The notes beneath the pieces are model-generated. The model was not told the DNA's origin. It made no database searches and worked only from the letters and a program-made list of their open reading frames with translations. Shown piece after piece: positions 33,098-36,498 of a DNA stretch of 36,498 bases. Position 1 is the first letter of the stretch; the number at the start of each line of letters is the position of its first letter. This DNA is from Betaproteobacteria bacterium SG8_39 (GTDB lineage Bacteria > Pseudomonadota > Gammaproteobacteria > Burkholderiales > SG8-39), in the NCBI GenBank assembly GCA_001303445.1, contig LJTQ01000009.1, positions 1-36,498 on the forward strand, read 5' to 3'. Position numbers and translations under genes: made by a program.

Positions 33098-33532
33098 CTA
33101 GCCGAGTGCGACTTTCTGCTCGGTCGCCGCTTCCGCCGCAGGGGCCACTTCTTTGCCGTGATGCTTGCGATAGTCCGCAATCGCGGCCTTGATGGCGTCC
33201 TCTGCGAGGATCGAGCAGTGGATCTTCACGGGCGGCAGTGCCAGTTCCTCGGCAATTTGGGTGTTCTTGATGCCCTCCGCCTCGTCGAGCGTCTTGCCCT
33301 TCACCCACTCGGTGACGAGCGAGCTGGAGGCGATCGCCGAGCCACAGCCATAGGTCTTGAAGCGCGCGTCCTCGATGACGCCGTCCGCACCGACCTTAAT
33401 CTGCAGCTTCATCACATCGCCGCAGGCCGGCGCGCCGACCATGCCGGTGCCAACCGACCCATCGCCCTTGTCGAACGAGCCGACGTTGCGTGGATTCTCG
33501 TAATGATCGATGACTTTGTTGCTGTATGCCAT
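33098..33532 (-). CDS. iscU: Fe-S cluster scaffold IscU
   Basis: [24 protein letters not shown]...[15 protein letters not shown]...[21 protein letters not shown]...[19 protein letters not shown]. Confidence 0.97.
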
Positions 33533-33603: not shown

Positions 33604-34839
33604 TCAGTGTGCCGCCCATTGCACCGAATTCAGATCGACGCCATCCTTGTACATCTCCCAGAGCGGCGACATCTCGCGCAATTTCGCCACCTTGGTCTTG
33701 AGGTGGTCAACGGTGTAGTCGACCTCCTCCTCGGTGGTGAAACGGCCGAGGGTAAAGCGAATCGACGAGTGCGCCAGTTCATCGGAGCGGCCGAGCGCGC
33801 GCAGCACGTACGACGGCTCGAGCGATGCCGACGTGCAGGCCGAGCCCGACGACACCGCGATGTCCTTTACCGCCATGATGAGCGACTCGCCCTCGACGAA
33901 ATTGAAGCTGACATTCAGGTTATGCGGCACGCGCTGCTCGACGTCGCCGTTGACGAAGGCCTCCTCGATCTCGGTGACGCCTTTCAGCAGACGGTCGCGC
34001 AACGCTCGGATGCGTTCGTTCTCGGTCGCCATTTCGAGTCGCGCAATGCGGAAGGCTTCGCCCATGCCGACGATCTGGTGCGTCGGCAGCGTGCCGGAGC
34101 GAAAGCCCCGCTCATGCCCGCCGCCGTGGATCTGCGCTTCCAGACGCACGCGCGGCTTGCGCCGGATATACAGTGCACCCATGCCCTTCGGGCCGTAGGT
34201 CTTGTGCGCCGAAAACGACATCAGGTCGACCTTCAGCGCCTTCAGGTCGATCGGGCACTTGCCCGTCGCCTGCGCCGAGTCGACGTGGAACAGCGCGCCG
34301 TGACGCTTGACGATCTCGCCGATCGCAGCAATGTCCTGAATCACGCCGATCTCGTTGTTGACGAACATCACCGAGACCAGGATCGTGTCCTTGCGGATCG
34401 CCGCCTCGAGCTGCCGCAGGTCCAGCAGCCCGTCCGGCCCCACGTCCAGGTAGGTCACCTCGAAGCCGCGGCGCTCGAGCTCGCGGCAGGTGTCCAGCGT
34501 CGCCTTATGCTCGGTCTTGACCGTGATGAGGTGCTTGCCCTTGGTCTTGTAGAACTCCGCCGCGCCTTTCAGCGCGAGGTTGATCGACTCGGTCGCGCCC
34601 GAAGTCCAGATGATGTCCTTGGCGTCGCAATTGACGAGTGCCGCGACCTGCGCGCGCGCATTCTCGACCGCCTCTTCTGCCTTCCAGCCGAAAGCATGCG
34701 AGCGACTCGCCGGATTGCCGAAGTGCTCGGTCAGATACGGAATCATCTTCTCGGCTACCCGCGGGTCGACCGGCGTGGTCGCCGAATAATCCAGGTAGAT
34801 GGGAAATTTCACGCTCTGCGTCCTCTGTCCGCTATCCAT
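33604..34839 (-). CDS. iscS: Cysteine desulfurase IscS
   Basis: [83 protein letters not shown]. An alternative GTG start at 34812 is possible. Confidence 0.97.
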
Positions 34840-34841
34840 CC

Positions 34842-35324
34842 TCAGGCCGCGATCGCCGGCTCCGGCTTCGACTCCGCATTCTCCGCGGCGCGCCAGTCAT
34901 GCAGCACCGCCACGTGCTTGCCGTGTTGATGCGCCACCAGATCGGCCAGCGTCACCGACGAAAGGTAGTCGTACATTTTCGCATTCAGCGTCGCCCACAG
35001 GTCGTGCGTCATGCAGCGCCGGTCATCGAGACAGTTCTCGCGCCCGCCGCACTGCGTGGCGTCGAGCGGCTCGTCGACCGCTGCGATGATGTCGGCCACC
35101 GATACGTCCTGCACCGGGACCGCGAGGTAATAGCCACCGCCCGGACCGCGCACGCTCTTGACCAGCGCATGGCGGCGCAGCTTGCCGAACAACTGCTCCA
35201 GGTAGGAAAGCGAAATCCTCTGACGCTCACTGATCGCCGCGAGCGTCACCGGGCCTTTCGCCTGGCGCATCGCCAAGTCCACCATTGCCGTCACTGCAAA
35301 ACGTCCTTTAGTGGTCAGTCTCAT
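34842..35324 (-). CDS. iscR: Rrf2-family regulator IscR
   Basis: [68 protein letters not shown]; Cys cluster [18 protein letters not shown]. Confidence 0.97.
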
Positions 35325-35340: not shown

Positions 35341-35394
35341 ATACCCGATTAAGTTGCTCAACTATAACAAATTCCGACTAAATTAATCAACTAA
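35341..35394 (-). promoter_or_regulatory. iscR promoter with two IscR-like sites (35341-35365 and 35370-35394)
   Basis: Minus-strand sites ATAGTTGAGCAACTTAATCGGGTAT and TTAGTTGATTAATTTAGTCGGAATT. -35 TTGATT (35385-35390), 18-bp spacer, -10 TATAGT (35361-35366). Confidence 0.8.
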
Positions 35395-35425: not shown

Positions 35426-36157
35426 CTACTTAACCGCCCTGAGATTCTCCGCAGGGGTGGCCTGCGCCTCGTGTTCCGCGAGTTCCCGCTCGAGCTCGGC
35501 CAGCTTGCGGGTGAGCGTCGCGACCGACTCTTCGAGCTCGTGCGAATGGACCACCATTTCCTGAATCGCCTTGGCGTAGGGATCGTCCTGGTTCTGCACC
35601 ACGCCGTAGGCCGCAAAGCGTCGTGCCGCCGCGGGCTGGCCGGAGCTTGCCTCGACGATGCGACCGGGCACACCGACCACGGTGGCCTCATCAGGCACGT
35701 CCTTCACCACGACCGCGTTCGAGCCGACCTTGGCGCCGTCGCCCACGCGAATCGGGCCAAGAATCTTCGCCCCGGCACCGACCACCACACCCTTGCCGAG
35801 CGTGGGATGGCGTTTGCCCTTATTCCACGTCGTACCGCCGAGGGTCACCCCGTGGTACAGCGTCGTGTCGTCGCCCACCTCGGCGGTCTCGCCGATCACC
35901 ACACCCATGCCGTGATCGATGAACACGCGCCTGCCGATGGTGGCGCCCGGATGAATCTCGATCCCGGTCAGCCAGCGCCCAAAGTGCGAGACCAGCCGAC
36001 CCAGCCAGCGCAGCCCCGAAGACCACAGCCAGCTTGAGAGTTTGTGCAGATAGATGGCGTGCAGGCCGGGGTAGCAGGTCAGCACTTCCCAGGTCGAACG
36101 CGCCGCCGGGTCGCGCTCGAAGATCGTCCCGATTTCTTCACGCAGCTGCTTGAACAT
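35426..36157 (-). CDS. cysE: Serine O-acetyltransferase CysE
   Basis: [45 protein letters not shown]...[36 protein letters not shown] 36157 preferred over listed 36217. Confidence 0.96.
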
Positions 36158-36188: not shown

Positions 36189-36221
36189 ATCGTAGGGTGT
36201 CCGACTAGTTTAGTCAACTAT
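36189..36221 (-). promoter_or_regulatory. cysE promoter with embedded IscR-like site (36197-36221)
   Basis: Minus-strand ATAGTTGACTAAACTAGTCGGACAC. -35 TTGACT (36212-36217), 17-bp spacer, -10 TACGAT (36189-36194). Confidence 0.75.
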
Positions 36222-36498
36222 TTCTGGCGCGCGTTCCCCAGCAGTGCACGCAACAGTCCGCGCAGCACATTTACCTCCTCGCGCTCGAGCCGCGTACGGG
36301 CAAACAAGCGCCGCAGGCGCTCGCGGAATTTCATGGGTGCTGCCGGATCGAAGAAGCCCACGGCCTGCGCGGCCTCGGCAAAGTGGGCGTGCAGACCCTC
36401 GATATCGGCCGCGGTGGCGAGCAACTGGCCACGCTCGGGCGGTACGCCGGCGCCCGCCGCGACGCGCAGCTCGTAGGCCATGACCTGCACCGCCTGTG
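36218..36498 (-). CDS. trmJ: TrmJ-like tRNA (cytidine/uridine-2'-O-)-methyltransferase, C-terminal part, truncated by window end
   Basis: ...QAVQVMAYELRVAAG...MKFRERLRRLFARTRLEREEVNVLRGLLRALLGN; typical TrmJ C-terminus and located upstream of cysE/iscR. Confidence 0.82.
   Translation of the reverse strand, partial: QAVQVMAYELRVAAGAGVPPERGQLLATAADIEGLHAHFAEAAQAVGFFDPAAPMKFRERLRRLFARTRLEREEVNVLRGLLRALLGNARQK

Follow-up and report, generated by a model that had tools for sequence, protein, structure and literature searches.

A conserved predicted IscR site across the cysE promoter by which cysteine supply is probably switched together with Fe-S cluster building

The cysE promoter of Betaproteobacteria bacterium SG8_39 carries a predicted type-1 IscR operator over its -35 element, located near one end of the window, by which we mean the whole 36,498-nucleotide stretch of contig LJTQ01000009.1 that was analysed. 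We estimate a probability of about 0.8 that [2Fe-2S]-IscR represses cysE from this operator when clusters suffice and that cysE is derepressed on demand. When clusters are sufficient, [2Fe-2S]-IscR would occupy the operator and block RNA polymerase, and less serine acetyltransferase would be made. When cluster demand rises, as under iron limitation or oxidative damage, IscR would lose its cluster and leave the site, and cysE would then be derepressed at the same time as iscRSUA and a gene for a monothiol glutaredoxin. Derepression of cysE would thereby supply O-acetylserine, and then cysteine, to IscS. The first-pass annotation had placed a possible IscR operator within the promoter of cysE, and this proposal is supported by comparative evidence, namely conservation throughout the order, retention of the site without an adjacent iscR and an IscR with intact residues. 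From these observations, together with the sequence and the promoter geometry, we infer IscR binding, repression, the response to stress and the physiological purpose.

The putative operator, ATAGTTGACTAAACTAGTCGGACAC, is a 25-bp imperfect inverted repeat at 36197..36221 on the minus strand, identified by consensus, matrix and conservation; the annotation had given its sequence, strand and coordinates correctly. It agrees at 21 of the 25 positions (84%) with the published type-1 IscR consensus of E. coli, given as ATASYYGACTRWWWYAGTCRRSTAT in PMC3899308. The promoter-distal arm is weak, with GGACAC in place of RRSTAT, which counts against repression by IscR. The cysE site had also been described as matching the two iscR sites in the pattern AGTTGA-N6-TAGTCGG. 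This pattern is exact at the cysE site (36201-36219, minus strand) and, of the two iscR sites, only at 35374-35392 (minus strand); the other, at 35345-35363 (minus strand), has one mismatch, TAATCGG. All elements of the previously suggested sigma70 promoter were located on the minus strand: the -35 hexamer TTGACT at 36212..36217, inside the operator, and, after a 17-nt spacer, the -10 hexamer TACGAT at 36189..36194, which begins 2 nt past the operator, so that TTGACT-17-TACGAT runs from 36217 to 36189. The operator thus overlaps the core promoter, as is characteristic of type-1 IscR operators, with the -35 within it and the -10 two nucleotides beyond. The predicted transcription start lies about 25 nt ahead of the cysE ATG at 36157, where the annotation had placed it.

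Downstream on the same strand lies cysE itself (35426..36157), encoding a serine acetyltransferase of 243 aa that scores above the cut-off of TIGR01172 with 256.3 bits. Upstream is the 3' end of trmJ (36218..36498, minus strand), an open reading frame cut by the contig end and named from the annotation and from aligned upstream homologues. As the annotation had noted, its stop codon overlaps the site: the TAG at 36218..36220 (minus strand) falls inside the operator. Only about 60 nt separate the end of trmJ from cysE, and trmJ read-through may bypass the operator and soften repression. After a gap of about 100 nt, cysE is followed by iscR (34842..35324, minus strand; 160 aa; above the cut-off of TIGR02010 with 214.5 bits), whose own promoter has two IscR type-1 sites on the minus strand, site 1 at 35370..35394 (30.75 bits) and site 2 at 35341..35365 (32.98 bits). 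Next come iscS (33604..34839, minus strand), the cysteine desulfurase and cysteine consumer, and iscU (33098..33532, minus strand), the cluster scaffold; both are open reading frames whose translations were named from sequence and gene order.

The direction of control, repression by holo-IscR, is proposed because the site overlaps the -35 and because promoters footprinted in P. aeruginosa carry weaker sites. The footprinted type-1 sites there have 64-76% identity and overlap or flank the -35, and repression from them depends on the cluster ligands (PMC6599224). Repression by cluster-bound IscR was shown in the E. coli and P. aeruginosa systems (PMC3899308, PMC6599224, PMC12594620). The type-1 operators of these two species, at iscR, nfuA, tpx and erpA, resemble the cysE site in the 25-bp inverted repeat, the overlap with the core promoter and the same IscR ligands, but the gene targeted here encodes the enzyme for the first committed step of cysteine synthesis. 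According to sections of PMC12889586 and PMC11584013, iron-starved E. coli represses cysE through RyhB, a direction opposite to that proposed here.

The site was sought upstream of cysE at iscR loci drawn from 40 relatives and 80 genome records, nearly all betaproteobacterial. We scored candidates with a symmetrised matrix whose training set was 155 distinct sites in the iscR promoters of genomes other than the window genome and its genus. Of 59 distinct isc-linked cysE upstream regions of betaproteobacteria, 52 had a site scoring 15 bits or more, against 0.44 predicted from dinucleotide shuffles, and 46 of the same 59 reached at least 20 bits. Excluding the window's genus left 50 of 57 with a site. 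One locus with a mis-anchored cysE start (L031) had been removed from the final 59, and the only two of 186 segments to exceed the threshold in a coding-sequence control both came from that locus. Azonexus, Dechloromonas and relatives have cysE sites matching 24 of 25 consensus positions. In 30 of the 52 loci the 25-mer is followed at exactly 2 nt by a TANNNT -10 hexamer, compared with at most three at offsets +3 to +29, and the window thus shows the conserved promoter geometry. The operator contains or overlaps the trmJ stop codon in 33 of 43 related loci, indicating that the same bases act as stop and operator. The operator is thus conserved across the order in sequence, position and -10 spacing. 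Checking conservation upstream of cysE, as the annotation had suggested, gave a positive answer within the order, whereas outside it the same gene order usually comes without the site. Among 80 cysE loci sampled from the wider class, 63 were isc-linked, with cysE and iscR adjacent, and 17 unlinked; a site of at least 12 bits (uniform background) occurred at 11 of the 63 and at none of the 17, while most iscR promoters in those loci do reach 12 bits. That only 11 of 63 have the site counts against the proposal and makes the link between cysE and IscR lineage-specific. The association of operator and cysE holds strongly within this order but only sporadically beyond it.

The fixed geometry also bears on a different role for a genuine site, in which IscR activates or marginally tunes cysE and transcription comes mostly from trmJ read-through or from CysB control. 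Such a role would suit the short distance between trmJ and cysE, and CysB reportedly affects CysE in Burkholderia pyrrocinia (PMC10179380). The constant spacing of -10 and operator in 30 of the 52 loci argues instead for an active promoter under steric control, and we regard activation or mere tuning as rather unlikely.

We also considered that the operator serves mainly the isc operon, the cysE promoter being a distal promoter that reads into iscRSUA and the control of cysE being incidental. No terminator-like site was found between cysE and iscR, which means that the cysE promoter may add transcripts to isc; the short gap between the two genes and their adjacency in 63 of the 80 cysE loci of the class point the same way. 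Against this, iscR owns a promoter with two stronger sites, and the cysE site persists where iscR is not adjacent. In four relatives of the same order (L115, L121, L123 and L116) cysE is not followed by iscR yet still has a site upstream. Scored against a uniform background, these sites range from 15.5 to 26 bits, compared with 19.1 for the window site. In three of the four relatives trmJ still precedes cysE. The site is absent upstream of further unlinked cysE genes in the order, such as those at L114, L117 and L124. E. coli K-12, in which cysE follows gpsA far from isc, has a 30.4-bit site some 160 bp ahead of cysE, within the 3' end of gpsA (L112:4723-4747; 3782722-3782746), and its iscR-promoter sites score 36.3 and 34.6 bits on the same matrix. 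E. coli cysE therefore shares an upstream type-1-like site with the order, but this site is inside gpsA and further upstream, and RyhB also represses the gene. Retention in the four relatives and presence in E. coli indicate that the site serves cysE itself, so that a main role for the isc operon appears improbable.

Repression by IscR also requires a regulator able to read the site. The genome-encoded IscR shares 54% identity with E. coli IscR across 134 residues and retains the cluster ligands C92, C98, C104 and H107 as well as E43 (Glu43), as expected of the regulator of a type-1 operator. A different Rrf2-family regulator could read the cysE site in place of IscR, and the genome does encode a second, distant Rrf2-family gene (G000:C30:64764-65021), which scores 36.8 bits to the IscR model. 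The matrix that found the site was trained solely on iscR promoters of other genera and also scores the iscR and cysE sites of E. coli, making another reader very improbable.

On this matrix the cysE site scores 24.0 bits, and within the window it is surpassed only by the two iscR sites (33.0 and 30.8 bits). The next scores, at most 13.7 bits, belong to overlapping AT-rich positions of the iscR promoter, and the best outside the isc and cysE promoters is 7.8. Under independent bases at the GC content of the window, 0.018 sites of the cysE score are expected per 3.14-Mb genome, and 200 dinucleotide shuffles of the 200-nt cysE upstream region gave 13.9 bits at best. The pattern AGTTGA-N6-TAGTCGG with at most three mismatches matched 10 times where 3.6 matches were expected, and 100 shuffles all stayed below 10. 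A chance match, or one arising incidentally from coding constraint where trmJ ends, either of which the overlap with the stop codon might suggest, is barely credible given that the operator lies mostly beyond that stop, that iscR and a glutaredoxin gene have the motif in their promoters without trmJ, and that the expectation per genome, the conservation in 52 of 59 against shuffles and the fixed -10 offset (30 of 52) all disfavour it.

A review names mainly isc, erpA and nfuA as type-1 IscR targets (PMC8593673). In a 2021 study of Yersinia IscR, the regions ahead of iscRSUA, cysE, erpA and nfuA were searched for type I motifs (PMC8262890), so the link to cysE has already been considered and is not wholly new. 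We found no open paper demonstrating IscR control of cysE; the primary E. coli IscR papers were outside this search, and priority is uncertain. Judged from sequence, the cysE operator would be a well-supported and modestly novel addition to what a known regulator controls rather than a new system. A comparable case is the serine acetyltransferase of the Azotobacter nif cluster (nifP/cysE1), for which excerpts of PMC6006210 likewise cite the proposal that a dedicated cysE raises cysteine for Fe-S assembly; it differs in being nif-linked, and those excerpts describe no IscR control. If repression of cysE by IscR holds, cysteine, which donates sulfur to IscS, would be supplied in step with Fe-S cluster demand through the sensor of the assembly machinery itself, and the adjacency of cysE and iscR in many proteobacteria would gain a mechanistic reason. 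It also makes a testable prediction for cultivable betaproteobacteria with near-consensus sites, such as the Azonexus and Dechloromonas relatives (24/25).

A whole-genome scan for a pattern with 2 mismatches, which weaker sites may escape, yielded one further strong site (G000:C157:5494-5518, equivalent to L229:1500-1524; 29.5 bits). It immediately precedes a grxD-like gene for a monothiol glutaredoxin, a name based on sequence, not on a family search. An upstream site of at least 18 bits was present at this gene in about 20 of the 29 genomes searched, the window genome included. Strong predicted IscR targets found in the genome were only these three: isc, cysE and the grxD-like gene. The isc machinery, the enzyme of cysteine entry and the glutaredoxin would form a coherent regulon of Fe-S supply. 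We tentatively propose, at somewhat less than even odds, that isc, cysE and the monothiol glutaredoxin gene are the compact and conserved core type-1 regulon of the order, in which Fe-S status would directly control cysteine synthesis independently of CysB and derepressed cysE mRNA would be nearly leaderless in several relatives. At six loci (L003, L007, L009, L018, L028 and L034) the operator ends 14-15 nt before the cysE ATG with the -10 immediately after it, which places the predicted start at or beside the ATG and suggests a nearly leaderless cysE mRNA.
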